DNA from: Jaapia argillacea MUCL 33604
Taxonomy: Eukaryota > Basidiomycota > Agaricomycetes > Jaapiales > Jaapiaceae
Reading direction: 5' to 3'
Assembly: GCA_000697665.1 (NCBI GenBank)
Contig: KL197723.1
Span: 438,876-502,875 of the forward strand
Length of the DNA stretch: 64,000 nt
Shown: positions 10,082 to 51,696 of the stretch, in pieces
Layout of the letters: each line of letters begins with the position of its first letter
Position numbering within the stretch: position 1 is the first letter of the stretch
The notes under the pieces: model-generated
Databases searched by the model: none
Told to the model about the DNA's origin: nothing
The model's input: only the letters and a program-made list of their open reading frames with translations
Translations under genes and position numbers: made by a program

Positions 10082-11915
10082 CTATGCTACCTCTTGGCGT
10101 GATTCTTCCTCGATCACCTGGTCCCCACTATCGTCGCGTCTACCAGGAGCCAGGCTATCGGCAGGTTCGGCATCTGAAGATACGACTCCTGGTTGAAGTC
10201 CATCCATCAATTCCCTCAACTGGAAGTTGATCTCCTGCGTACCGACACACTCCTCATGTCGATATGATACTTCTCGGATATTGAGAATAAGCCGACAGCC
10301 TAGCGTGCAAGTTGCTGCGATGTTCAAACTGAGGAAGATCTGAATCCAAATCGGCTGTTCACAGACAGAGGGTCAGGTCCTCGGTATCAGAGAAAAATGG
10401 AGGTAGCATGTATCGGGGAACTCACGGGGAAAGCGAACCAGGCGATGACCGTGAGACAATAAATCGAGAAGATACTGGAAACTGTGAGTTCGATCAACAA
10501 CAAATGAAATCAGATAGACGAACATCAAGAAATATAGGATGTTATCTCTCAGGAGGACCTCAGTGGCGCCATTTCTTGTCCAAGGATGACTGAGCTGGAG
10601 TAAATGCAGCACTGTCTTGTAGAGTGCGAGAAAAAACAAGATTCCCTCAAAAACCATCATTGAGATCCACGTCCCAACTGCATTTGTCGGCATCTGGGTC
10701 ACCATACAGATCGTATAGATACCGAACTTGTTGGCGATGACTGACGAAAGGAGGAAAATCAGGAAATCACAAAATGACGAAGAAGGAAGTGATAGTACAA
10801 TGGACGTCTTGATACAAGGCAAAAAAAGCCATTGAAGTAGCTACTTGAATGATAAAACACGTGAAGGTGAGAGCAAGAACCCATTTCGAGCGGTTGTACA
10901 ATGCATAGACTCGGAACTGCATGACGACTTTGGAGGCAGAGGTAGCAACACAATATGATATTCGACAACAGTGTCAGGGACCAACCTTCGAAGGGTGACT
11001 TTATGCATACCTTGCACAACCCAGGCAGGTATCGCGGTAGCCCATATTTGCAGTAGAAGACGGCTACGACCTGAAAGATGAGAGTTGAGCGCCTTGTCGG
11101 TAGGGAGGAAGTGCACCAACATCTACGTAACCAAGCCAACGTAGGTGGGAGATGAAATAGAGTAAATAAATGATACTTGACTCACGACTGACAGCAGTGA
11201 CAGCAAGCCCATCATGAGTAGACAAATAAAAAGTAAGGTGAGAAGCTCACGCTATCTGAGGTCGCCTCAGTGAGCACAACTAGGCAGTTGATAATCAATG
11301 GGTGGGCCAGATAGACGGAAACGCAAACATACGGATCAAAATCGCGCTGCCATGAGGACGGGGACATTGGCGTGAAATAAACAATCAGGCGTCGCAAATG
11401 GTGACTTACACGACGAGACCATCGCCACAGTATCGAGTCTGTGTCCGGATTAACAGTTGCTTCCCGACGGAGTGAAAACCACACCTACTAGTAGGAAGAA
11501 GATCTTTGCCGAGATTCCTGGACGTTTCTACCAGATCCCCCGGTTCAATGGCCAATAATGGAAAAAGAGATTAAAGAACAAACCCAGATAAGTTCTACCT
11601 AACACAGTGGTTGCCGTCCATTCATCAGCAGACGCAGAGGGAGGAAGACGACGTCATTGCACCACCTCTTGGTCAAATACAATCACTAACAAAGGCATCT
11701 TGTGTTTCCGGTAAATGGGGAGGTATAAGAACGGCGAATACTCACAGTGATCGTAAATGGTGGCAAGGGTCGCCGAAACTAGTGTAAGCACACACAAAAG
11801 ATGAATGTTAGACGCCAATTAACGGTTCTCCACAATTTTTCACTCCGAACTCACGTTGGACAAGGCGGAGAAGGTGCAAGTTTTGAACCAAACCGACGGG
11901 GTCAAAGTCTTGCAT
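10082..11915 (-). CDS. DUF6533-type multi-pass membrane protein, copy A
   Basis: It has the same 15-exon plan as the copy at 39708-41516, from ATG 11913-11915 to TAG 10082-10084. The N-terminal DUF6533 signature assembles across exons as LSATLATIYDH, IVFDQE, VELIW (15-nt exon 11584-11598), KRPGISAKIFFLL, TRYCGDG. Downstream are VMQFRVYALYNRSKWVL, FEGILFFLALYKTVLHL, TEVLLRDNILYF and GCRLILNIREVSYRHEEC, with about seven hydrophobic spans, so it should be an integral membrane protein. Two 2-nt exons are inferred at 11186-11187 and 11121-11122; they yield Ser-Cys before RSRLLLQIW. All splice signals are good; one donor is GTACTA. The cytosolic tail is acidic and ends SRQEVA. No enzyme or receptor function is known for this family. 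It belongs with copies C, H and I. Confidence 0.82.
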
Positions 11916-14912: not shown

Positions 14913-16700
14913 CTATGCCACCTCCTGGCGTGACACTTCCTCGATCGCCTGGTCCCCACTATCGTCGCGTCTACCAGGAGCCAAGCTGTCGGCAGGATCA
15001 ACACCTGAAGACACGACTCCTCGTTGAGCTCCATCCACCAACTCCTTCAACTGGAAGTCGATCTCCTGCGTGTTTACACACTCCTCGTGTCGATACGATA
15101 CCTCTCGGATATTGAGAATGAGCCGACACCCAAGCGTGCAGGTTGCCGTGAAACTCAAGCTGCTAAGGATCTCGGTCCACATGATCTGTTGGCGTGGACA
15201 GAGGGTTAGGTCCTCGATTCTCGAGGAGAAAGGGAGAGTGGTGAGGGAGGAACGCACGGGAAAAGCGAACCAGGCAATGACCATCAGACAGTAAATCGAG
15301 AATATACTGGAAACTGTGTGGTGAGCCAGATCGACAACAACAAAGGAAATTGGAAGACGAACATCAAGAAATATAGGATATTATCCCTCAGTAGAACTTC
15401 AGTGGCACCACTCCTTGTCCAAGGATGATTCAACCGTAGCAAATGGATCACCGTCTTATAGAGGGCGAGGAAGAACAAGATTCCTTCAAAGGCCATTGTT
15501 GAGATCCACGTCCCGGCTGCATTCGCCTGCATCTGCGTGGCCGCACATGTTGTCCAGGGGCCAAACTTAAGGGAAATGACTAATGGGGAGGGCTAAGTCA
15601 AAATCGACGAAGGAGCGTAAAGGTAAGTGATACCTGGGACATATTCGTACAAAGCAAAAAGATACGACGTAATTGCCATTTGGATTATAAAACAGGTGCA
15701 GGTGAAGGCGAGGACCCATTTCTCGCGGTTGTACATTGCATAGACTCGAAACTGCATGATAACTTGGGAGTGAAGGTCAAAACGCGAGATGAGTTTGTAA
15801 GGATAGCCCTCGAAGGACATACCTTGCACGACCCAAGCCGGTATTGCGGTAGCCCACATTTGCAGCATAAGGCGGCTATGGCCTGAAACATAAGAGTTCA
15901 GCGACCTTGTCCATGGAGGATATATGTTTACCAACATCTATGCAACCGACGTAGGTGGGAGATTAAATGGTGTATACAAATGATGCCACACTCACGACTG
16001 AAAGTGGGTGTGCGTCAAAGTTGAGCAGAAAAATGAAGGATAAGCCGAGAAACTCACGACGTCGGTGTTTGCCTTAGTGAAGAGAACTGGGGAACTGAGA
16101 ATCAATCGGGTGGGTCGGATAGGCATGAAGATGAACGTACGGATCGTGATGGTGCTGCACGAGGAGGGGGAGATCGGCATGATGTTGATCATTTGTGAAG
16201 GGGAGACTTACATGATGAGGCAATCGCCGCAGTATCGAGTCTGCACCAGGGTCAACAGTGGCCCACGATGGGGTGGAAATTACTTGTACCAGTAAGAAAT
16301 ATATCTTCGCAATAATTCCCGGACGTTTCTGCCAAATTACGGTTCAGCAATTGATAACTCAAAGGAAATCCAATAACATACCCAGATAAGTTCGACCTAA
16401 CCCATTGGCCATCAATCATTATTAGCTAAGTTCCAGGGGAAAGATGACGTCGTTGCCGACCTCTTGGTCAAAGAGAATCACTGGCCAAACAAAGTTGGGC
16501 TGCCAGTAATTCGGAGAGGAAAAGGTGTGGCGAATGCTTACAATGATCATAAATATTGGCAATGGTCGCTGAAACTGGTGTACACGAAGATGGTTGTGAG
16601 GTGTCGAGTGCACTTTCTACATTTTCCCTCCAAACTCACGTTGGACAAGGCGGAGAATACGCAAGTTTTGAATCAAGACGGCGGGATCAAAGTTTCGCAT
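14913..16700 (-). CDS. DUF6533-type multi-pass membrane protein, copy B
   Basis: The ATG is at 16698-16700 (MRNFDPAVLIQNLRILRLVQ) and the TAG at 14913-14915. Every exon of the shared 15-exon plan is present with correct phase: DH/ILFDQE, VELIW, KRPGIIAKIYFLL, TRYCGDCLI, the 14-nt exon (ITI), LFTKANTDV, the two inferred 2-nt exons giving Ser-Cys, HSR...LQMWATAIPAWVVQ, VIMQFRVYAMYNREKWVLAF, FEGILFFLALYKTVIHLLRL, TEVLLRDNILYF and the C-terminal GCRLILNIREVSYRHEECVNTQE. Predicted as an integral membrane protein of about 320 residues with a soluble C-terminal tail ending VSRQEVA. It groups with copies E, F and G by sequence. No break was found. Function unknown. Confidence 0.82.
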
Positions 16701-19440: not shown

Positions 19441-21237
19441 CTAGTCCCCTTCATCGTCGCATCGACGACAAACCGAGCTGTCGGTGGGATCTCCGCCTGA
19501 AGCCAAGGCTCCCCGATGAAGTCCATCCACCAACTCCCTCATCTGGAAGTCGATCTCCTCCGTATTTACGCACTCCTCGTGTCGATACGATGCGTCTCGA
19601 ATATTGAGGAGGAGCCTACAGCCAAGGGTACAGGTTGCAGTGACGTTCAGGCTGCTTAAGACCTCGACCCAGATGATCTGGTGGTATAACGGTTAGGTTC
19701 ATCCCAGAAACGAATGAGAAAAAGGGGTGTGTATATGGGAACGTACGGGTAAAGCGAACCAAGCGATGACCTTGAAACAATAAATCGAGAATATACTGAA
19801 AACTCACGGATGAGCGAGATTTGCAACGACAAAAGGAATCTGATCGACGAACACTAAGAAATGTAGGATGTTGTCTCTCAGCAGAACCTCAGTGGCGCCA
19901 TTCCTTGTCCAAGGATAATTGAACCAGAGCAAATGTACCACCGTCTTATAGAGTACAAGAGCAAACAAGGTTCCTTCAAACACCATCATTGAGAGCCATG
20001 TCCCGATTGAATATGCTGGCATCTCGGTCACCACGCAGGTAGTCCAGATATCGAACTTGACGGCAATGACTGACGAAAAGAGTAAATCAGCAAATCACAA
20101 AAAATGACGAAGAATGAGCGAGGGGTAAGTGATACCTCGGACGTCTTGATACAAGGCGAACAAAACCATTGAAATTGCTATTTGGATGATGAGACAAGTA
20201 AAGGTGAGAGCAAGAACCCATTTCGCGCGGTTGTACAATGCGTAGACTCGAAACCACATGATAACTTTGGAGGCGGAGGTAGAACGGGACATGAGTTTTG
20301 ACAATAGTGCCAGGAATCGGAATAGCCCTGGAAGGGTGAAATTATGCATACATTGTACAATCCAGGCAGGTATTGCGGCAGCCCATATTTGCAGCAGAAT
20401 ACGATTGTGGCCTGGAACATGAAAGTTGAGCGCTTTGTCGATCGAGAGGATGTGTACCGACATCTATCTAACCAGTGTAGGTGGAAGGTGATATAGTGTA
20501 ATTAAATGATCCTTGACTCACGACTGACAACAGCGGGAGCAAGCCCATGAGTATACGAACAAAGGGCAAGATGAGAAGCTCACGTTATCTGAGGTTGCCT
20601 CAGTGAGAACTACACAGTTGCAAATCAATGGGTGGGCCGGACGAACGGAAAGGCAAACGTACAGATCAACATGGTGCTGCGACGGGAAAGGGGACATTTG
20701 TATAAATTAATCGATGATTTGTTGTAAATGGAGGCGTACATAACGAAGTCATCACCACAGTATCGAGTCTGCGCCAGGATCAACAATGTTGTCACAATGA
20801 GTATGGACACCTGTACCAGTAGGAAGAATATCTTTGCTGAGATTCCCGGACGTTGCTACCAAATTCTCGGGTTCAGCTGTCGATAACGCAAAAAGAGATT
20901 AAACAACATACCCAGATAAGTACGACCTAACCCAATGACATCGAATATTCTCAGCAAAAGTTCCAGGGGCAAAGATGGCATTGTTGTACTACCTCTTGGT
21001 CGAAGACGATCACTAACGAAACGATCTGAGGCTTCTGGTGATTCGGGAGGGCACAGTCGTGATGAATGCTCACAATGATCGTAAATGGTGGCAAAGGTTG
21101 TCGAAACTAGAGTACACAACAGATGGTCGTTAGATGTCAAATGTCGGTGTTCCGCAATTCTCCCTTCTGGACTTACGTTGGACGAGGCGGAGAAACTGCA
21201 AGTGTTGAACCAAACCGACAGGATCAAAATCTTGCAT
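19441..21237 (-). CDS. DUF6533-type multi-pass membrane protein, copy C
   Basis: The ATG is at 21235-21237 (MQDFDPVGLVQHLQFLRLVQ) and the TAG at 19441-19443. The 15-exon plan is complete: IVFDQE, the 15-nt exon here VVLIW, QRPGISAKIFFLL, TRYCGDDFV, the 14-nt exon, a 26-nt exon (3 nt shorter than in copy B, still in phase), two inferred 2-nt exons giving Ser-Cys, HNR.LLQIWAAAIPAWIVQ, IMWFRVYALYNRAKWVLAL, FEGTLFALVLYKTVVHLL, TEVLLRDNILHF and LLLNIRDASYRHEECVNTEE. The tail stops at DDEGD, about ten residues earlier than in copy I, where the frame continues to ESRQGTV; the same codons can still be read past the stop here. The residue before RVY is Trp rather than Gln. Otherwise it seems intact. 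Function unknown. Confidence 0.8.
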
Positions 21238-25321: not shown

Positions 25322-27146
25322 TCATACAACCCCCTCGCGTGATTCATACTCAATCCCGCCGAGCCCGTTATCGTCGTGTCTACCGCGAGCCAAGTTTTCG
25401 GTAGGATCAGCACCTGAAGACACGACTCCCCGTTGAACTCCATCCACTGGCACTAACTCCTTCAGCTGGAAGGCGATCTCCTGCGTGTTTACACACTCCT
25501 CGTGTCGATACGATACTTCTCGGATATTGAGCATGAGCCGGCACCCAAGCGTGCAGGTTGCTGTGATATTCAAGTAGCTTAAGATCTCAGTCCAGATCAT
25601 CTGTTGATGTGGACAGAGAGTCAGGTCCTCGTTACTCGAAGAGAGTTGGAAACGGTGACGGGATGTATCTGGGAACGCACGGGAACAGTGAACCAGCCGA
25701 TGACCATCACGCTGTAAATCGAGAACATACTGAAAACCGTGGGATGAGCCAGATCGAGAACAAAGGAAATCAGAAAGACGAACATCAAGAAATATATGAT
25801 ATTATCCCTAAGTAGAACCTCAATGGCACCATTCCTTGTCTAAGGATGATTCAGCTGTAGCAAATGCATCACCGTCTTATAGAGGGCGAAGAAAAACAAG
25901 ATTCCTTCAAAGGTCATAATTGAGATCCCCGCCACAACTGCTTCTGCTGACTTCTGGGTGGTTGCACAGGCCGTCCAATTAGCGAACTTAACCGAGACGA
26001 CTAACGAGGAGGGTACAATCAGCAAGTCAAAATCGTCAGGGGGGCGTGCAAGGTAACTGATACCTGGAATACAGTCGTGCAAAACAAAAAAAGCCGATAC
26101 AATCGCAACTTGAACGATAAAACATGTGAAGGTGAAAGCGAGGACCCGTTTCTCGCGGTTATACATTGCGTAGACTCGAAACTGCAGGATAACTTTGGGG
26201 TGGAGGTCAAAACACGAGGTGAGATTCGTAGGGATTGCCCTCGAACGGAGAGTTCGTGCACACCTTGCACAACCCAGACTGGTATTGCAGTAGCCCATAT
26301 CTGCAGGAGAAGACGGCTACGACCTGAAACATGAGTTCAGCAATTTTGCCAGCGGAGAAGTTGTGCGCTAACATCTGTGCAACAAATGTAGGTGGAAGAT
26401 TATCCAGTGTAGATGACTGATTTTCCACTCATGACTGACAATAGTGGGACCACGCCAAACGTGAGCAGATGAATGAACGATAAGACGAGAACTCACGCTA
26501 TCCGTGTTTGCCTCAGTAATGGTAACTGGACAATTTAGTCAATCAGGCGGATCGGTTGGACATGAGTCAGGCATACGGATCAAAAGGATGCTACCCAGAG
26601 GGAAAGGGCATAGGCATAAAATTGATCATCGGTTGCAAATGGGAGACTTACATGATGAAACAATCGCCGCAGTATCGAGTCTGCACCAGGATCAACAGTT
26701 GTTCACGGTGGGGAGGAAATTACTTGTACCAGGAAGTAGAAGATTTTTGCAATGATTCCCGGACGTTTCTGCCAAATTACACTTCAACGATCAATAACTC
26801 AAAGGAAAATGATAGCATACCCAGATAAGTTCGACCTAACCCGTTAGGCATCAGCCCTTCTCAGTTGAGTCCCAGAGAAAAGAAGAACGTCGTTACTGAC
26901 CTCCTGGTCAAAGAGAATCACTGTCCAAGAGACGTTGGACTTCCAGCAGTTCGGGGAGGCAAAAGTGAGGTGAATGCTCACGGTGATCGTAAATAGTGGC
27001 AACGGCTGCCGAAACTGGCGTGCGCAAAGATAGTCGTGACTCGTGAGGCTAGTGTAACTTTCCAATGTTTCTGCACTGAACTCACGTTGGAAAAGGTGGA
27101 GAAGCTGCAAGTTCTGAACGAAGATAATGGGATCAAAGTCTTGCAT
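25322..27146 (-). pseudogene. DUF6533-type membrane protein, copy D (decayed)
   Basis: The exon plan of the family is recognisable from the ATG at 27144-27146 to a stop at 25322. The early exons (MQDFDPIIFVQNLQLLHLFQ, ILFDQE, VELIW, KRPGIIAKIFYFL, TRYCGDCFI) are sound. Two lesions are visible. The codon for the conserved Trp in HPWTRN is TAG (25840-25842), which would cut the protein within the fifth or sixth membrane span. The donor after the first inferred 2-nt exon has changed from GTGAGT to ATGAGT. There is also a short deletion near 26330, in the stretch that I read as an intron in the other copies. The C-terminal region remains readable (CRLMLNIREVSYRHEECVNTQE), so decay is recent. It groups with copies B, E, F and G. 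Confidence 0.8.
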
Positions 27147-29129: not shown

Positions 29130-30931
29130 CTATGCTACAACCTGGCGTGATTCTTCCTCAATCGCCTGGTCCCCACTATCGTCGCGTCTACCAGGAGCCA
29201 AGTTGTTGGCAGGATCAACGCCTGAAGATACGACTCCTTGTTGGAGTCCATCCACCAACTCCCTCAACTGGAAGTCGATCTCCTGCGTGTTTACACACTC
29301 CTCGTGTCGATATGATACCTCTCGGATATTGAGAATGAGCCGACACCCAAGCGTGCAGGTTGCCATGATATTTAAGCTGCTGAGGATCTCCATCCAAATG
29401 ACCTGTCGACGTGGACGGAGGGTTAGGTCCTTGGTTCTCAAGGAGAATAGGAGAGTGGTGACGGAGCAACGCACTGGGAAAGTGTTCCAGGCAATTGCCA
29501 TCAGGCAGTAAATCGAGAATATACTGAAAACTGTGTCGTGAGCCAGATCAACGACAACAAAGGAAATCGGAGACGAACACCAAGAAATATAGGATATTAT
29601 CCCTCAGTAGAACCTCGGTGGCACCACTCCTTGTCCAAGGATGATTCAACCGTAGCAAATGGATCACCGTCTTATAGACGGCGAAAAAGAACAAGATTCC
29701 TTCAAAGGCTATCGTTGCGAGCCACGTCCCGGCTGCATTCGTCGGCATCTGGGTAGCCGCGCATACTGTCCAAGGACCGAACTGAAGGGAGATGACTAAC
29801 GGGGAGGGCTAGATTAGAAGGTCAAAATCAACGAAGGAGTGTAAAAGGCAACTGATACCTAGGACGTATTCGTACAAACCGAAAATATACAACGTAATTC
29901 CAATTTGAATTATAAAACACGTGAAGGTGAAGGCGAGAACCCATTTCGCGCGGTTGTACATCGCATAGACTCGAAACTGCATGATAACTTTGGGAGTGAA
30001 GATCAAAACACGAGATGAGTTCGTAGGAATAACCCTCGAAGGGCGATTCGATGCTTGCCTTGCACGACCCAAGCCAGTATTGCGGTTGCCCACATTTGCA
30101 GCATAATACGGCTATGGCCTGAAACAGGAGAGTTCAGCGATCTTGTCCATGGAGGGCATATGTTTACCAACATCTGTGCGACCAACGTAGGTGGGAGATT
30201 GTATGGTGTCAACAAATGATTCTTTACTCACGACTGACAGCGGGGGCACGCCAAAAATGAGCGCACAAATGAAGGATAAGTCGAGAAACTCACGTCATCC
30301 GTGTTTGCCTTAATGAAGGGAACTAGGGAATCGAAAATCAATAGGGTGGGTCGGATAGACATGAAGATGAACGCACGGATCGTGATGGTGCTGTACGAGG
30401 AGGGGGAGATCGACATGACATCAATCATCTGTGGTGAAGGGGCGACTTACATGATGAGGCAATCGCCACAGTATCGAGTCTGCGCCAGGATCAACAGCGG
30501 CCTACGATGGGGTGTAAATTACTTGTACCAGCGAGAAGTATATTTTCGCAATGATTCCCGGACGTTTCTGCCAAATTACGGATCAGTAATCGATAACTCA
30601 AAGGAAATCAAATAACATACCCAAATAAGTTCGACCTAACCCATTGGACATCAATCATTATCAGCTAAGTCTCAGGCGAAAGATAATGTCGTTGCCGACC
30701 TCTTGGTCAAAGAGAATCACTGGCCAAACAAGGTTGGGCTACCAGTAATTCGGAGAGAGACAGGTGTGGCGAATGCTCACAATGATCGTATATATTTGCA
30801 ACGGCTACTGAAACTGGAAGGTGGTTGTGAGGTGTTGAGTGTACTTTCTACATTCTCCCTCCAAATTCACGTTGGACAAGGCGGATAATACGGAGGTTTT
30901 GAATCAAGCTGGCGGGATCAAAGTCTTGCAT
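29130..30931 (-). CDS. DUF6533-type multi-pass membrane protein, copy E
   Basis: The ATG is at 30929-30931 (MQDFDPASLIQNLRIIRLVQ) and the stop at 29130. All 15 exons keep phase: ILFDQE, VELIW, KRPGIIAKIYFSL, TRYCGDCLI, the 14-nt exon, LPFIKANTDD, inferred 2-nt exons 30232-30233 and 30172-30173 giving Ser-Cys, HSRIMLQMWATAILAWVVQ, VIMQFRVYAMYNRAKWVLAF, FEGILFFFAVYKTVIHLLRL, TEVLLRDNILYF and GCRLILNIREVSYRHEECVNTQE. The donor after AWVVQ is GCAAGC, so this is a GC-AG intron; the matching site in copies B, F and G is a GT donor. The tail ends ESRQVVA. No frame break was found. Integral membrane protein of about 320 residues, function unknown. Confidence 0.8.
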
Positions 30932-33793: not shown

Positions 33794-35604
33794 CTATGCC
33801 ACTTCCTGGCGTGACACTTCCTTGATCGCCTGGTCCCCACTATCGTCGCGTCTACCAGGAGCCAAGCTGTCGGCAGGATCAACGCCTGAAGACACGACTC
33901 CTCGTTGAGCTCCATTCACCAACTCCGCCAACTGGAAGTCGATCTCCTGCGTGTTTACACACTCCTCGTGTCGGTATGATACCTCTCGGATATTGAGAAG
34001 GAGCCGACACCCAAGCATGCAGGTTGCCGTGATATTCAAGCTGCAGAGGATCTGGATCCAAATGACCTGCCAGTGCAGATGGAGGGTTAGGCCCTTGGTT
34101 CTCGAGGAGAACGGTAGAGTGGTGAGGGAGGAACGCACGGGGAAAGTGAACCATGCAATGGCCGTCAGGCAGTACATAGAGAATATACTGAAAACTGTCT
34201 CGTAAGCCAGATTAACGACAAAAAAGGAAATCGGAGAGACGAACACCAAGAAATATAGGATATTATCCCTCAATAGAACCTCAGCGGCACCACTCCTTGT
34301 CCAAGGATGATTCAACCGTAGCAAATGGATCACCGTCTTATAGAGGGCGAAGAAGAACAAGATTCCTTCAAAGACTATCGTTGCGAGCCACGTCCCAGCT
34401 GCATGCGCCGGCATCTGGGTAGGCACACATACTGTCCAGGGGCCGAACTTAAGGGAAAGGACTAACGGGGAGGGCTAAGTTAGAAAGTCAAAATCAACGA
34501 AGGAGTGTAAAAGGTGACTGATACCTGGGACATAATTATACAAAGTAAAGAGATACGATATGATTGCGATTTGAGTTATAAAAAATGTGAAGGTGAAGGC
34601 GAGGACCCATTTCGCGCGGTTGTACATCGCATAGACTCGGAACTGCATGAGAACTTGAGAGTGAAGGTGAAAACACAAGATGAGTTTCTAGGAATAGTCC
34701 TCGAAGGGCGGGTTCATGCTTACCTTCCACGGCCCAAACCAGGATTGCGGTAGCCCACATTTCCAGCATAATATGGCTATGGCCTGAAACATGAGAGTTC
34801 AGCGGTCTTGTCAATGGAGGGGATATGTTTACCAACATCTGTGCGACCAACGTAGGTGGGAGATTATATGGTGTAAACAATGATTCTTCACTCACGACTG
34901 ACAGCGGAGGCACGCCAAAGATGAGTGGACAAATGAAGAATAAGACGAGAAACTCACGTCATCCGTGTTTGCCTTGGTGAAGAGAACTAGGGAATTGAAA
35001 ATCAATGGGGTGGGGTCGGATATACATGAAAATGATCGTACGGATCGTGTTGGTGCTGTATGAGGAGGGGGAGATTGACATGACCTCGATCATCTATGGT
35101 GGAGGGGCGACTTACATGATGAGGCAATCGCCACAGTATCGAGTCTGTGCCAGGATCAACAGGGGGCCACGAAGGGATGGGAATCACTTGTACCAGTAAG
35201 AAGTAAATCTTCGCAATGATTCCTGGACGTTTCTGCCAAATTCCGGTTCAGCAGTCGACAACCCAAAGGAAATCAAACAACATACCCAAATAAGTTCGAC
35301 CTAACCCATTGGACCCCAATCGTTATCAGCTAAGTTCTGAGGGAAAGATGACGTTGTTGCCGACCTCTTGGTCAAAGAGAATCACTGGCCAAACAAAGTT
35401 GGGCTGCCAGTAATTCGGAGAGGGACAGCTGTGGCAAATACTCACAATGATCGTAAATATTTGCAACGGTTGCGGAAACTGGTGTACACGAAGGTGGTTG
35501 TGAGGTGTCGAGTGTACTTTCTGCATTTTCCCTGTAAACTCACGTTGGACGAGGCGGAGAATATGTAAGTTTTGAATCAAGCCGGCGGGGTCGAAGTCTT
35601 GCAT
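33794..35604 (-). CDS. DUF6533-type multi-pass membrane protein, copy F
   Basis: The ATG is at 35602-35604 (MQDFDPAGLIQNLHILRLVQ) and the TAG at 33794-33796. Exons and phases are as in copy G: ILFDQE, VELIW, KRPGIIAKIYFLL, TRYCGDCLI, 14-nt exon (TNTI-like), LFTKANTDD, two inferred 2-nt exons giving Ser-Cys, HSHIMLEMWATAILVWAVE, VLMQFRVYAMYNRAKWVLAF, FEGILFFFALYKTVIHLLRL, AEVLLRDNILYF and the C-terminal GCRLLLNIREVSYRHEECVNTQE. The Gln of LQMW/VVQ is Glu twice here (LEMW, AVE). No break was found. It is an integral membrane protein ending EVSRQEVA. Copies F and G are among the closest pairs in the array. Confidence 0.82.
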
Positions 35605-39707: not shown

Positions 39708-41516
39708 CTATGCTACCTCCTGGCGTGATTCTTCCTCGACTGCCCGGTCCCCACTATCGTTGCGTCTACCAGGAGCCAAGCTGTCGGCAGGATCAACACC
39801 TGAAGACACGACTCCTCGTTGAAGTCCATCCACCAACTCCCTCAACTGGAAGTCGATCTCCTGCGTGTTTATACACTCCTCGTGTCGATATGATACCTCT
39901 CGGATATTGAGAATGAGCCGACACCCAAGCGTGCAGGTTACCATGATAGTCAAGCTGCTGAGGATCTCGATCCAAATGATCTGTCGGCGTGGACGGAGGG
40001 TTAGGTCCTGGGTGCTCGAGGAGAATGCGAGAGTGGTGAGGGAGGCACGCACGGCGAAAGTGAACCAAGCAATGGCCGTCAGGCAGTAAATCGAGAATAT
40101 GCTGAAAACTGTGTGGTGAGCCAGATCAACGACAGCAAAGGAAATCAGAGAGACGAACACCAAGAAATATAGGATATTATCCCTCAGTAGAACCTCAGTG
40201 GCACCACTCCTTGTCCAAGGATGATTCAGCTGTAGCAAATGGATCACCGTCTTATAGAGGGCGAAGAAGAACAAGATTCCTTCAAAGGCTATCGTTGCGA
40301 GCCACGTCCCGGCTGCAATCGTCGGCATCTGGGTAGCCGCACATGTTGTCCAGGGGCCGAACTTAAAGGAAATGACTAAAGGGGAGGGCTAAATTAGAAA
40401 GTCAAAATCAACAAAGGAGTGTAGAAGGCAACTGATACCTAGGACATATTCGTACAAAGCAAAAAGATATGACGTAATTGCGATTTGAATTATAAAACAC
40501 GTGAAGGTGAAGACGAGAACCCATTTCGCGCGGGTGTACATCGCATAGACTCGAAACTGCATGAGAACTTGGGAGTGAAGGTCAAAACACGAGATGATTT
40601 CGTAGGAATAACCCTTGAAGGGAGATGTCATGCTTACCTTGCACGACCCAAACCAGTATCGCGGTAGCCCACATTTGCAGCATAACACGGCTATGGCCTG
40701 AAACATGAGAGTTCAGCGATCTTATCCATGGAAGGGATATGTTTACCAACATCTATGTGACCAACGTAGGCGGGTAATTATGTGGTGTAAACAAATGATT
40801 CTTTACTCACGACTGACAGCGGGGGCACGCCAAAGATGAGCGGACGAATCAAGGATAGGACGAGAAACTCACGTCATCCGTGTTTGCCTTAGTGAAGAGA
40901 ACTAGGGAATTGAAAATTAATGGGGTGGGTCGGGGAGACATGAAAATGATCGTACGGATCGTGTTGGTGCTGTATGAGGAGGGGGAGATCGACATGACAT
41001 CGATAATCTATGGTGAAGGGGCGACTTACATGATGAGGCAATCGCCACAGTATCGAGTCTGCGCCAGGATCAACGGGGGGCCACAATGGGGTGGAAATTA
41101 CTTGTACCAGTGAGAAGTATAGCTTCGCAATGATTCCCGGACGTTTCTGCCAAATTACGGATCAGCAGTCCATAACCCAAAGGAAATCAACAACATACCC
41201 AAATAAGTTCGACCTGACCCATTGGACATCAAGCGTTATCAGCTAAGTTCCAGGGGAAAGATGATGTCGTTGCCGACCTCTTGGTCAAAGAGAATCACTG
41301 GCCAAACAAAGTTGGGCTGTCAGTAATTCGGAGAGGGACAGGTGTGGCGAATGCTCACAATGATCGTAAATATTTGCAACTGCTGTTGAAACTGGTGTAG
41401 ACGAAGGTGGTTGTGAGGTGTCGAGTGTACTTTCTCCATTTCCCTGCAAACTCACGTTGGACAAGGCGGATAATGCGGAGGTTTTGAATCAGGACGACGG
41501 GATCAATGTCTTGCAT
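39708..41516 (-). CDS. DUF6533-type multi-pass membrane protein, copy G (reference exon model)
   Basis: Exons in transcript order are 41456-41516, 41359-41391, 41278-41297, 41199-41213, 41108-41146, 41030-41058, 40956-40969, 40873-40901, 40811-40812, 40751-40752, 40638-40697, 40439-40567, 40159-40375, 40053-40101 and 39708-39980. They total 972 nt, or 323 residues. The DUF6533 domain is residues about 20-65: STAVANIYDH, ILFDQE, VELIW, KRPGIIAKLYFSL, TRYCGD. Then come TNTILLFTKANTDD, the Ser-Cys made by the two 2-nt exons, HSRVMLQMW, VLMQFRVYAMYTRAKWVLVF, VISFKFGPWTTCAATQ, FEGILFFFALYKTVIHLL, TEVLLRDNILYFLVIFSIYCLTAIAWF and GCRLILNIREVSYRHEEC. About seven membrane spans are likely, with a charged C-terminal tail of about 60 residues. 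In the family as I know it, the DUF6533 segment is N-terminal and followed by the same order of motifs. The biochemical role is unknown. Confidence 0.85.
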
Positions 41517-42577: not shown

Positions 42578-45008
42578 TCAGGACCACGGAAAATACCACT
42601 TTGGCGCCAACTTATCTTCGAGGGAAAACATCCCACTCTTCAACCCTTCCTCCATATCCTCCTCAACCCAAAGCGTCTTCAGCAAGACCTTATCCTGCCG
42701 CGCGCTTGAGGGAGAATGTTCCCAAATCCGTTTCTTTTTGTCAACAGCAACTCGGATACGCTTCATCAAGGGAAGAGTCTCTTTCAGTGGTGTACCGCAT
42801 GACCAGAGGTTCTCGAGACCACATTGAAGGCACCCTGATCTCGCAGGTGATCCCAGGGGTACTACGTTAGTAATGTCTTCTTCATAGAACAGGAGAAACT
42901 CACAGGCATGGTCCTCCTCGTCTTCGGGATACAAACGGGTAGCTTCTAGATAGAAATTAGCAGCCGTTCGAAGGTGATCGTCAATGACGCTGGTGTCAAC
43001 GGTTTCGTCATCCTTCGAGATCAATGCCTTCTGCTTGTGAAAATAGCCTTTCGTCCTATGGGAATCCGGATTAGCAGATCAATGAGAAAGTGATGGAAAA
43101 CGCAGGAAGATACGAAAGGTCAACGCACATTAAGGCGAGGGCTCTGGGGTATATGTAGAATGATGAAACGAAGCCGGGATCTTGGAGGGCGCCGGTACTG
43201 GGCGAGCGCTCGCCCTTGATGGGAGGGTGTTCATCCAAATCTTTAATCACCATGTTTGCTATATTCATCAAGGCTTCAAGCGTATACTTGGAACCAGGCC
43301 CGTGAAAATCGTTCCATGCCTGTTTCCGTGGGCGTAGATATTAATTATCCGAGTTGATGAAGGAAACTGGACGGATTCCGGGAACACGGTACTTACCTCC
43401 AGGTAAAATCTCATATACATCACTCTGACACCCCTCGTAAACGTATCACAGAATATCATCCCTCGGTCGACGTCCCGGGCATTCTTCCATGCCTTTCGTC
43501 CCCAGTCAAGCACGTGCAATGCCTTTTCCATGTTTTCGACAGCTTTTTGTGATTGTCCGCTAAACGATGCGAGGGCGCCGTACAGTATCCATGATCTTCG
43601 TTCATTGCATCACGACAGGGTGGAATGAAAAAGGCGAGGAGATATGTTAGCAGGTGACGGATGTCCAGCCTAAATCGAGTGGTACTCACCTGACAGTTCT
43701 GGATAACCGTCTTTGTACTGCATCCCAACCGAGATCAATCTGGCGAGCGTAAGCTTGTTGAGTCACGGTAACTGCATCTCCACGGGACCATTCCGTCGCT
43801 CCACTTTCCTGCAGTTCGAGTTCCACTGTGTCGTGTATGTAACTCAGGTCAATGTGAAAGGATTCCGCAGAAATGGAATGCGACACAAACAATGGGAATT
43901 AAACGATGCGAGCCACCCAGGGCGGCCCATCAGGACTGAGATACGCATGTCTCGCATCAGAGCACTTGTGAAATCCACCACAGCCTAAAAGAGGTGGAGA
44001 TCAGGATTGCTTTCGAAAGAAATTGTAAGGACGCTCGCGGTTAGATTTATGGCGACGGTACACATCATAGGCCCCTTGGCTAGCGCTTCTTGAGTGACCT
44101 TTGTGATCTTGTCCATCGTCGCATTGCCTATTCACGAAAGAACCTTCGGAAAAAGGCTGAGCCGTCGCCATTGAAAACGGACCTTGTTCAAAGTCCTGGC
44201 CTCTAAGGTAAGTAGAATACAGGAAAGAAGAGATGGAAAAAACGTAAGGATGAATGGCGTACCCGGTATGCAAACAGGATCACCCACGCCTATAAGTTTG
44301 GGGTCAGCCCAAAAACCAAACGAGTCAAGACCCAAACCCCACACTGCTAGAAGCCATGTTATCGGTAGCTCGTACAAGCTCGCTAGTCATGGCCTTAGCA
44401 CGATCCCACGGCATCTCTCCAGGTTTGAAAGGGCGGGCATCAAAATCCTTCTCAATTGCTGCTTTCAAGGCTGTTTCGTAACTCTCCTTCTGCTTTTTCT
44501 CCTGTGGAGTGAGTTGCGATTTGTGTAGACCCTCCAGAGCCTTGATCCAAGACGGGGCAGCCGGCATGCCCAGGGCCTATTTTAGAGGTAGGAGCACATA
44601 GGGTGTTCCTCGAGGGCGCTTTCCACTTACTGTCTGTGCAGCGGCTAATCGCGCCCAAGCCTTTGTGTAATGTGGATCCAGTTTGGTTGCCTAGAAGGTT
44701 TGCAATGCAAACCTGGGTCAACTGATATGAAAGTATTAAAACACAATTGCGATCCTCACCTTGGTAGCGTCCGTCGAAGCTTGAGGAAACCTGTTCTCTT
44801 TCGTTCACGAGCTGATACTAGACAGTAATGTTCGGCGATACCTTTCTAACTGCAGGCTACACGCCGCCCGGTTGGAATATAGAACCGCGTTATTAGGGTC
44901 TTGTTGGATCGCCTTGGTGTACTTGGAGAATGCACCTGATCAATCACCGCTAGAAAAAAGAGTATCTCCTTCGTCCTTCAAACGTTCAGCAAGGGGTTTT
45001 GTCGACAT
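42578..45008 (-). pseudogene. TPR-domain protein, probably disrupted
   Basis: The gene reads leftward from the ATG at 45006-45008: MSTKPLAERLKDEGDTLFSS, then a TPR helix pair (GAFSKYTKAIQQDPNNAVLYSNRAACSLQLER, FPQASTDATK, ATKLDPHYTKAWARLAAAQT, ALGMPAAPSWIKALEGL). Later exons are LQESGATEWSRGDAVTVTQQ, VLDWGRKAWKNARDVDRGMI, DPGFVSSFYIYPRALAL, and the final TPLKETLPLMKRIR...IWEHSPSSARQDK, matching what I recall of agaricomycete TPR proteins. Between the first two blocks the frame reads GGT GAT TGA TCA GGT (TGA at 44940-44942). Read literally this stops the protein after about 22 codons. The middle, near 43860-43960, contains sequence shared with 38950-39030 and may be disrupted. It could be a recent pseudogene, or the TGA may be bypassed by an unusual splice. 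TPR proteins usually act as adaptors, for example to chaperones. Confidence 0.6.
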
Positions 45009-47172: not shown

Positions 47173-49038
47173 CTATGCTACCTCTTGTCGCGATCCCCCC
47201 TCACCCCTCTCGTCCCTCTCGTCCCCATCATCTTCGTGTCTATCACGAGCCGAGCTTTCAGCAGGATCAGCACCCGAAGACAACTCTCCCTGATGTATTC
47301 CATCTGCCAACTGCCTCAACTGGAATTCGATCTCCTCCGTGTTTACACAGTGCTCGTGTTGATATGATACCTCCCGGATGTTGAGGATGAGCCGACAGCC
47401 TAGCGTGCAGGTCACAGCGATATTCAAACTGCTTAAGATCTCGATCCAGATTATCTAGTGATACAGCTAAGTCTTCAGTGCCCAAAAAGAACGGAAAGGA
47501 GCAAGCTCACAGGTAAAGCAAACCAGGCAATGACCGTGAGACAATAAATCGAGAAGATACTGGAAACTGTGGGATGAGCTGGATCAACAATAACCGAATC
47601 GGATAGACAAACATCAAGAAATATAGGATGTTATCTCTCACGAGGACCTCAACAGCGCCGTTTCTTGTCCAAGGATGATTGAGCCGGAGTAAATGTAACA
47701 ACGTCTTGTAGAGGGCGAGAAAGAATAAGATTCCTTCAAAAACCATCATCGCGATCCACGTCCCGACTACATTCGATGGAAAATTGGTCACTACACAATT
47801 CGTCCAGATGCCGAGCTTGATGGCGATGACTGGCGAGAAGCGAGAAGAGTTAAATCAGCAAATCACAAAAAAAAATTGATGAAGGATCATGTGATACCAT
47901 GGACCTCTTGATACTTGGCGAAAACAGCCAGTGAAGTTGCCATTTGGACGACGAAACATGTGAAGGTGAGAGCAAGAACCCATTTTGCGCGGTTGTATAA
48001 TGCATAGACTCGGAATTGCATGATAACTTTGAAGGCAGAGGTAGGAACGCGAGATGAGACTTGACAATAGTGCCAGGTATAACGCTGCAAGGGCAATGTC
48101 AATGCATACCTTGCACTACGAAGGTAGGTATTGTGGTACCCCATATTTGTAGCAGAAAACGGCCGTGACCTGGAGCATGACAGCTTAGCAATTTAACAAT
48201 AGAAAGGACGTGTACTAACATCTAGGTAACCAACGTAGGTGGTAGATGACATAGTTTACACAAATGATCCTTGACTCACGCCTGACGACAGTGGGAGCAA
48301 GTCCATCATGAGTTCAGGAACAAAGGACGAGACGAGAAGCTCACGTTATCTGAGGTTGCCTCAGTGAGGAGAACTATGCATTTACAAATCAATACTAGTA
48401 GGCGTGCCGGACGAACGGCAGGGCAAGTCACTGACGAACGTACGGATCAAAATGGCCCTACCCACAAGAAAGGGAGCATTAGTATGAAATGATCGATCAT
48501 TTATCGGAAATGGAGACTTACACAATGACGCCATCGCCACAGTATCGAGTCTGTACCAAGATCAACAGTAGGTTCGCGGAGGAGTGAGAAATGCCTGTAC
48601 CAGTAGGAAAAATATCTTCGCTGAGATTCCCGGACGCTTCTACCAATTCCAAATTCTCCAGTTCAGTGGTCGATAACACAAAAGAGATTAAAGAACACAC
48701 CCAGATAAGTTCGACCTAACCCGGTGGACATCATACATTCTCAGCAAAAGGTCCAGGGGAAAAGATAACGTTGTTGCACTACCTCTTGATCAAGGGTGAT
48801 CACTAACCAAACAATCATGGCTTTCAGTGATACGGGGGAGAGACAAGCATGGGGAGTGCTCACGATGATCGTAAATTGTGGCAAAGGTTGCCGAAACTAG
48901 CGTAAGCGCACACAAAATATGGTCGTTAGATGCCAAGCGCCGACTTCCACATTGTTTCACTCTGAACTCACGTTGAAGGAGGCGGAGAAGCTGCAAGTGT
49001 TGAACCAAACCGACGATATCAACTTGAAGGTCTTGCAT
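47173..49038 (-). CDS. DUF6533-type multi-pass membrane protein, copy H
   Basis: The likely start is 49036-49038 (MQDLQVDIVGLVQHLQLLRLLQ), matching the other copies; an in-frame ATG lies two codons upstream at 49044. The stop is at 47173. Exons carry LSATFATIYDH, ITLDQE, VELIW, KRPGISAKIFFLL, TRYCGDGVI, a 14-nt exon (AIL), LLLTEATSDN, inferred 2-nt exons 48280-48281 (GC here, not TC) and 48220-48221 giving Ala-Cys, HGRFLLQIWGTTIPTFVVQ, VIMQFRVYALYNRAKWVLAL, FEGILFFLALYKTLLHLLRL, VEVLVRDNILYF and GCRLILNIREVSYQHEHCVNTEE. All donors and acceptors are normal. The DQE context reads ITLDQE, closest to the family consensus. Function unknown. Confidence 0.82.
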
Positions 49039-49863: not shown

Positions 49864-51696
49864 TTATACTGTCCCCTGTCGTGATTCTCCTTCAGCCACC
49901 TCGTCCCCTCCATGGTCGCATCGACCACGAGCCGAGCTATCGGCAGGATCACCTGAAGACAGGACTCCCCGATGAACTCCATCCATCAACTCCCTCAACT
50001 GGAAATCGATCTCCTCTGTGTTTACGCACTCCTCGTGTCGATACGATGCCTCTCGAATATTGAGGAGGAGCCTACAACCGAGCGTGCAGGTCGCCGTGAC
50101 ATTTAGGCTGCTTAAGACCTCGATCCAGATGATCTGTTGGTATGAAACAAACGGTTAGGTCTGACCCAGAGAAGAATGGGAAATCTGTGTCTGGGAACGC
50201 ACGGGTAAAGTAAACCAAGCGATGACCGTGAAACAGTAAATCGAGAATATACTGAAAAAGCTGGGATGAGCAATTTTCAACGGCAAAAGGAGATCGGATG
50301 GACGAACACCAAGAAATATAGGATATTGTCTCTCAGGAGAACCTCAGTGGCTCCATTCCTTCTCCAAGGATAATTAAGCCGGAGCAAATGTATCACCGTC
50401 TTATAGAGCACAAGAAAAAACAAGATTCCTTCAAACGCCATCATTGAGAGCCATGTCCCGACGGACTGTGTTGGCATCTGAGTCACCAGACAGTTCGTCC
50501 AGATACCGAACTTGAGGGCGATGACTGACGAAATCAGTGAAATCAGCAAATCACAAAGAATGACGAAGGAGCGCGAGGAGAGTGGTGTTACCTCGGACGT
50601 CTTGATACAAGACGAACAAAGCCATTGAAATTGCTATTTGAATCACAAAACACATGAAGGTGAGACCAAGAACCCATTTCGCACGGTTGTACAATGCGTA
50701 GACTCGAAACTGCATGATGACTGTAGAGGTGGAGGTAGAAACGCGAGATGAGATTCGACAATAGTGCCAGGGATTGGAATATCCCTAAAAGGGCGACGCA
50801 TGCGTACCTTGCACAAACCAGGCAGGTATTGCGGTAGCCCATATTTGCAGCAGAAGACGATCGTGGCCTGGTAAATGAGAGTTGAGCATTTTGTCGATAG
50901 AGATGATGTGGACCAACATCTATGGGACCAACGTAGGTGGAAGATGACACAATGTAAACAAGTGATTATTGACTCACGACTGACAATGGTGGGGGCAAAC
51001 CCATCATGAGTAGACGAACGAACGGTAAGACGAGAAGCTCACGCTATCTGAGGTTGGCTCGGTGAGCATAACTACGCAGTTGAAAGTCAATGGGGGCCGG
51101 ATGGACGGAAAGGCAAACATACGGATCAAAATGGCGCTGCCACGAGAAAGGCGACATTGGTATCAAATCATTGATCATTTAGTGCAAATGGAGACTTGCA
51201 TGACGAAGCCATCGCCACAGTATCGAGTCTGTGCCGCGATCAACAATGGTATCATGGCGGAGTGAAAACACATTTACCAGTAGGAAGAATATCCTTGCCG
51301 AGATTCCCGGACGTTTCTACCAAACTCTCAGATTCAGCGATCGATAACGCAAAAAGACATTAAACAACATACCCAGATAAGTTCGACCTAACCCAACGGC
51401 GTCAAACATTCTCAGCACAAATTTCAGGGGAAAAGATGACGTCGCTTCATTACCTCTTGATCAAAGACAATCACTAACGAAAGGATCTGGGGCTTCCGGT
51501 GATTCGGGGGGATACAAGCGTGGTGAATGCTCACAATGATCGTAAATGGTGGCAAAGGTTGCCGAAACTAGGGTTCAAAAAGATGCTTGTTGGAGGCAAA
51601 ACACCGAGCCAACACATTCTCCCCTCTGAACTCACGTTGGAGAAGACGGAGAAGCTGCAAGTGGTGAACCAAACCGACGGGATCGAAGTCTTGCAT
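49864..51696 (-). CDS. DUF6533-type multi-pass membrane protein, copy I
   Basis: The ATG is at 51694-51696 (MQDFDPVGLVHHLQLLRLLQ) and the TAA at 49864-49866. All exons keep phase: IVFDQE, VELIW, KRPGISARIFFLL, TRYCGDGFV, the 14-nt exon (AIL), TEPTSDS, two inferred 2-nt exons giving Ser-Cys, HDRLLLQIWATAIPAWFVQ, VIMQFRVYALYNRAKWVLGL, FEGILFFLVLYKTVIHLLRL, TEVLLRDNILYF and LLLNIREASYRHEECVNTEE. The donor after TRYCGDGF-Val is GCAAGT, a GC-AG intron; the same position is GT in the others. The tail ends ESRQGTV. This is the right-hand end of the array and is closest to copy C. Confidence 0.82.

Follow-up and report, generated by a model that had tools for sequence, protein, structure and literature searches.

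The 64,000-nt stretch of Jaapia argillacea DNA analysed here (the window, within which all positions below are counted) carries a family of related genes on its minus strand. One of them, copy G, can be modelled as 15 exons separated by introns of 49-72 nt and encoding 323 codons plus stop. In this model, exon 1 with the start codon (61 nt, 41456..41516) is followed by exon 2 (33 nt, 41359..41391), exon 3 (20 nt, 41278..41297), exon 4 (15 nt, encoding VELIW, 41199..41213), exon 5 (39 nt, 41108..41146), exon 6 (29 nt, 41030..41058), exon 7 (14 nt, 40956..40969) and exon 8 (29 nt, 40873..40901), which ends with the residues TDD in phase 0. Downstream lie exon 11 (60 nt, 40638..40697), exon 12 (129 nt, encoding QFRVYAM..., 40439..40567), exon 13 (217 nt, with a conserved W-T-x-C motif, 40159..40375), exon 14 (49 nt, 40053..40101) and exon 15 with the stop codon (273 nt, 39708..39980). 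Exons 7 and 4 are themselves tiny, and their lengths of 14 and 15 nt are the same in all nine copies of the gene in the window. The product of copy G, the copy scanned against Pfam, matches DUF6533 (PF20151) with an E value of 9.6e-11 and 42.1 bits against a cut-off of 24.1; the match covers residues 19-61, encoded by exons 1-6.

Exon 8 closes on a complete codon (phase 0), and the opening two bases of exon 11 are positions 2 and 3 of a codon, so that 1 nt modulo 3 must be supplied between them. The initial annotation proposed that this is done by two successive exons of 2 nt each, TC and AT, set between good acceptors and donors, and the bases and splice signals of copy G are just as it described them. 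The minus strand reads GATGAC/gtgagt...cag/TC/gtgagt...tag/AT/gttggt...cag/GCCATAGCC, with exon 11 beginning at 40697 (cag/GCCATAGC). Exon 9 (TC, 40811..40812, in the context cag/TC/gtgagt) would provide the first two positions of a Ser codon, and exon 10 (AT, 40751..40752, in the context tag/AT/gttggt) the wobble base of that codon and the first base of a Cys codon, which the initial GC of exon 11 completes to TGC ahead of HSRVMLQMW. The four bases thus give TCA TGC, or Ser-Cys, in copy G. The three introns in a row, anticipated at about 53-60 nt, prove to be 60 nt (intron 8, upstream of the first 2-nt exon, 40813..40872, GATGAC/GTGAGT...CAG), 58 nt (intron 9, separating the two, 40753..40810, GTGAGT...TAG) and 53 nt (intron 10, downstream of the second, 40698..40750, GTTGGT...CAG), all of them GT-AG.

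When the 15-exon model of copy G was transferred by alignment to the other copies in the window, both 2-nt exons and the frame were kept in all eight intact copies, as had been claimed, and seven of the eight have no internal stop. The pairs, all on the minus strand, lie at 11121..11187 in the 11k copy (TC 11187-11186, AT 11122-11121), 15936..15997 in the 16k copy (TC 15997-15996, AT 15937-15936), 20462..20523 in the 20k copy (TC 20523-20522, AT 20463-20462), 30172..30233 in the 30k copy (TC 30233-30232, AT 30173-30172), 34837..34897 in the 34k copy (TC 34897-34896, AT 34838-34837), 48220..48281 in the 48k copy (GC 48281-48280, AT 48221-48220) and 50918..50979 in the 51k copy (TC 50979-50978, AT 50919-50918). 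Seven intact copies have TC as the first 2-nt exon, and the GC of the 48k copy turns Ser-Cys into Ala-Cys, a substitution the initial annotation had already noted. The ninth copy, at 26k, is a pseudogene (26373..26434; TC 26434-26433, AT 26374-26373): the donor after TC, which had been reported as lost, has indeed changed from GT to AT, and there is a stop in exon 13 as well. Exon lengths are constant among the intact copies save for in-frame changes in exon 8 (20k), exon 1 (48k) and exon 15 (51k). The 20k copy has an early stop in exon 15, a dozen codons short of the C-terminus of the other copies, and the region projected for the 48k copy stops short of its stop codon. A GC donor stands after exon 11 in the 30k copy (30057-30058), in place of the GT of the other window copies, and another after exon 6 in the 51k copy.

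The whole window was also scanned for the bare pattern of two consecutive 2-nt exons of this form. Chains of this kind end at 14 of its 3139 YAG sites. Of the 14, 13 belong to the eight family sites, where an additional AG 7 nt further on makes five sites count double, and the remaining one is elsewhere. This last, at 44202 on the minus strand (CA, GC), lies outside the family and is probably due to chance.

We searched for relatives in one genome (43.7 Mb in 95 contigs), and the resulting lists of relatives are lower bounds. Further members of the subfamily lie past the window on the same contig (C15, 449-628 kb), and this lower-bound list includes other matches on C8, C75, C47, C6, C9 and other contigs. 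Among viral contigs in IMG/VR, 20 stretches matched a pattern, and no relative was confirmed. Matches to exon 12, taken at E values up to 0.01, yielded 55 distinct upstream segments, 44 of which contain a 60-nt exon 11 with its signature; the other 11, all from the loci of the Pfam search (30 loci of 70 matches), were set aside. In the 44, the chain was scored automatically as AG/2 nt/GT...AG/2 nt/GT...AG with introns of 40-90 nt, and the encoded residue was not used in the scoring. It was found in 40 of the 44, and in all 40 the four bases encode the cysteine. The next size class, with exons of 2 and 6 nt, occurs in five members, and none of 8800 mononucleotide shuffles of the upstream stretch gave a 2-nt, 2-nt chain ending at the conserved acceptor.

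The four automatic exceptions are the 26k copy, L021, L086 and L074. In L074, the chain is present with a weaker upstream donor, and this locus, which has a stop further down, is counted as having the chain. Ten further members were read by eye, and eight of them have the chain, L100 and L101 being the exceptions. The chain, in which each 2-nt exon has its own AG acceptor and GT donor, is thus found in 49 of 54 members, nine of the 49 (including L074) having been read by eye with the pattern already in mind. The sixteen extra regions examined contributed eight of the 49 and the two in which a site is lost (L100 and L101), while L093, L097, L098, L102, L103 and L104 are left uncounted. Across the 49 genes, the three introns span 47-79 nt, and pairwise identity over the compared segment of 60-63 residues ranges from 19 to 92 percent, with a median of 40.

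The chain is not intact in five members. L021 and L100 have lost the donor of the second microexon and L101 the upstream donor, so these three are likely to be decaying copies or to use a rare donor. In L086 (on C29), the first microexon appears by eye to be 8 nt and not 2, a change which would add two codons while keeping the cysteine. The fifth is the 26k pseudogene. Such damage, together with the stops elsewhere in the 26k copy and in L074, is what one would expect if the block were mis-spliced or non-productive in vivo, with the copies decaying and the pattern a relic. The coding sequence of the window copies is, however, under purifying selection (pN/pS = 0.39), and the splice sites and frame are kept in the eight intact copies, the GC donors in two of them aside. 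We consider a relic of this kind very improbable.

The base composition of the two microexons follows the codons that they would help to form. Among the 49 chain members, microexon 1 is TC in 21, GC in 11, AT in four, GG in three, GT, TT, CA and AG in two each, and GA and AC in one each. Microexon 2 is AT in 40, TT in five, GT in two and CT in two, and exon 11 starts with GC in 28 and GT in 21. From these counts, the first codon is free (Ser, Ala, Ile, Val, Gly, Gln, Glu, Leu, Thr or Phe), while the second is always Cys, as TGC in 28 genes and TGT in 21, and the microexons are thus conserved as coding in both sequence and frame. On a tree of 48 members (L074 was left out), built from 63 columns and weak at many of its forks, the minimum number of changes is 14 for microexon 1, seven for the wobble base, and zero for both the T and the G of the Cys codon, whose third base changes at least nine times and only between C and T. 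The second base of microexon 2 is T in all 48 of these members, and its first base may be A, T, G or C. The base changes therefore obey codon rules: wobble bases vary, and the bases that define Cys stay the same. Apart from coding use of the four bases, nothing known to us would explain this pattern.

The same pattern bears on whether some other small internal exon, for instance of 4, 10 or 13 nt and bounded by other GT-AG sites, could supply the missing nucleotides. We enumerated the GT-AG paths that preserve the frame through one or two internal exons, and found 1-27 per gene. By pattern, a path with a single exon of 13 nt exists in 19 of the 49 genes, of 4 nt in 11 and of 10 nt in nine. The class with two exons of 2 nt is present in 49 of 49 by selection, the genes having been picked for that chain, but every other class occurs in fewer than 20 of them, so that none is widely common, and such exons leave both the invariant T and G and the codon-rule changes unaccounted for. 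We have rejected other single or double small exons, which seem to us a most unlikely source of the missing bases.

The position of the cysteine offers a comparison with relatives that have no introns at this point. In 46 of the 49 microexon genes, a regular expression finds the encoded cysteine in the arrangement C-x25-VYA. The remaining three are L077, in which Arg is replaced and the spacing is 25 by eye, L074, with its internal stop, and the 30k copy, which is missed because of its GC donor after exon 11 and whose spliced protein does have C-x25-VYA. We also considered 34 other loci of DUF6533 type, 30 from the Pfam search and four from the extra regions. In 25 of these 34, a single unbroken exon encodes a Cys that precedes the V-Y-A of the following exon by exactly 25 residues; 23 of the 25 come from a scan permitting spacings of 23-29, and two, L040 and L064, from a scan of spacing 25 only. 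Outside the 25 are L039, L041, L043, L059 and L062, found through Pfam, and L098, L102, L103 and L104; a spurious-looking match in L062 and a second match in L065, at spacing 24, were not counted. Because C-x25-VYA is shared with the one-exon loci, the microexon bases appear to place the cysteine just as in relatives lacking these introns. The suggestion in the initial annotation that two real, frame-restoring 2-nt exons put Ser-Cys after TDD is thus supported by the chain in 49 of 54 members, by the codon rules and by the Cys spacing.

This spacing also weighs against a competing structure which the initial annotation had itself named as the one that would refute its proposal. In it, one long intron would begin after the TDD exon and end at the acceptor preceding ATGTTGG, so that intron 10 would be coding and add 17-18 codons without a Cys. 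Intron 10 can be read through in frame and without a stop in 21 of 40 genes, among them all eight intact window copies, and this counts in favour of the competing structure. In the other 19 of the 40 genes with the chain, the read-through is out of frame or stopped. Taken as an open reading frame, AT plus intron 10 has a pN/pS of 1.02 (pooled pairs from the eight intact copies), as compared with the 0.39 of the coding sequence, and so intron 10 behaves as non-coding. Read-through would, moreover, leave the conserved TC/GTGAGT site unexplained and lose the cysteine of C-x25-VYA. Retention of intron 10 as coding sequence was accordingly rejected, as it fails in frame in so many genes and shows no coding constraint, and we give it hardly any weight. 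Retention of intron 8 is workable in seven of 40 genes. Retention of intron 9 is workable in none of the 40. A nested twin intron (stwintron) does not fit the model, as excision between the outermost sites would contribute 0 nt and leave exons 8 and 11 out of frame with each other.

It is thus highly probable (about 94%) that TC and AT are two constitutive 2-nt coding exons of a 15-exon DUF6533 gene, together spelling a variable residue and the cysteine. As far as genomic DNA can establish such things, the splice signals, the frame, the codon-rule evolution and the position of the Cys are all in place, and from them we infer that the spliceosome would join 2-nt exons in vivo, constitutively and in sequence. 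The three short introns would each be recognised singly, by intron definition. Only 2 nt separate each splice site from its neighbour, and two spliceosomes would hardly fit there together, so the introns should leave one after another, each step leaving a 2-nt remnant that abuts the next donor, in a process that would resemble recursive splicing with an exon of nearly zero length. On completion, the four bases and the first two of exon 11 would be read as two codons, the first for a residue that varies (Ser in copy G) and the second for a Cys that does not. In a loose scan, a motif resembling a YTNAY branch point lies in the expected range in 40, 31 and 25 of 40 genes for introns 8, 9 and 10, respectively, and intron 10 may use a variant motif. 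Guo and Liu applied the same sequential reasoning to the 1-nt exon of Arabidopsis (PMC4674806).

As for the protein, the cysteine of the W-T-x-C motif in exon 13 is present in every one of the 33 distinct matched sequences reaching that far. The microexon cysteine is probably at the outer end of helix 3 and, by analogy with GPCRs, may pair with this second conserved cysteine. The encoded DUF6533 protein is probably a membrane protein of the seven-helix type, a helix count that we take from the description of SNB1 (snowball) of Coprinopsis, a DUF6533 protein with seven transmembrane helices and an extracellular N-terminus (PMC10949477). The DUF6533 domain, common to SNB1 and the present proteins, has been called basidiomycete-specific, and microexons go unmentioned in the available portions of the description of SNB1 (PMC10949477).

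Ultra-short exons as such are already known; what would be new here is that two 2-nt exons are conserved in tandem. Exons of 1 nt have been established in plants such as Arabidopsis, in APC11 and VPS55 (PMC4674806, PMC8831610), and the present exons resemble them in falling short of a full codon, in being conserved (in that case across land plants) and in being absent from annotations (PMC4674806, PMC8831610). In most monocots APC11 is intronless, with the base inside one exon, a situation comparable to the one-exon DUF6533 genes considered here. The plant genes differ in having a single 1-nt exon that has been demonstrated from RNA. Ours, which form a large fungal family, are predicted from sequence to have two in succession, of 2 nt each, with three introns interrupting a run of four coding bases. 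Two tiny neighbouring exons also occur in plants, as microexons of 5 and 12 nt, although these are longer and belong to an unrelated gene, Peptidase M1 (PMC8831610).

Among fungi, basidiomycete P450 genes likewise have many small exons and introns of 45-55 bp, the shortest exon there being 6 bp (PMC1184071). Xlr2 of Trichoderma virens also contains a functional microexon of a filamentous fungus, but that one is regulated and serves as a switch in an ascomycete transcription factor, in a field of research described as limited (PMC11121469). Fungal stwintrons resemble the present arrangement in requiring several consecutive splicing reactions at one place; in a stwintron, however, the internal intron splits a splice element of the external one, whereas here 2 coding nt would stay behind at each step. 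In the open-access PMC literature, as far as it was accessible, we found no tandem pair of 2-nt exons, nor did we find mention of 2-nt exons in the available portions of PMC3990503 and PMC12409088.

If this reading is true, the spliceosomes of a fungus routinely join two consecutive 2-nt exons. That would agree with intron definition and a strict sequence of splicing steps, and would be hard to reconcile with exon definition. We lean towards the broader view that the pair is ancient and family-wide, with 98 such exons in one genome kept through deep divergence of the paralogs. A block of about 170 nt would then be removed in three obligatory sequential steps by way of stepping stones, the four bases placing a structural Cys, and the same arrangement would probably exist in many Agaricomycetes, unseen by annotation. 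The roughly 50 paralogs would provide a natural series for studying minimum exon size and the order of intron removal. Gene finders that disallow 2-nt exons would err in this protein family at the conserved cysteine. Two tandem 2-nt exons would stand at the edge of known splicing, where ordinary gene annotation easily misses them, and intron-rich fungi may have more 2-nt exons than their annotations would lead one to expect.
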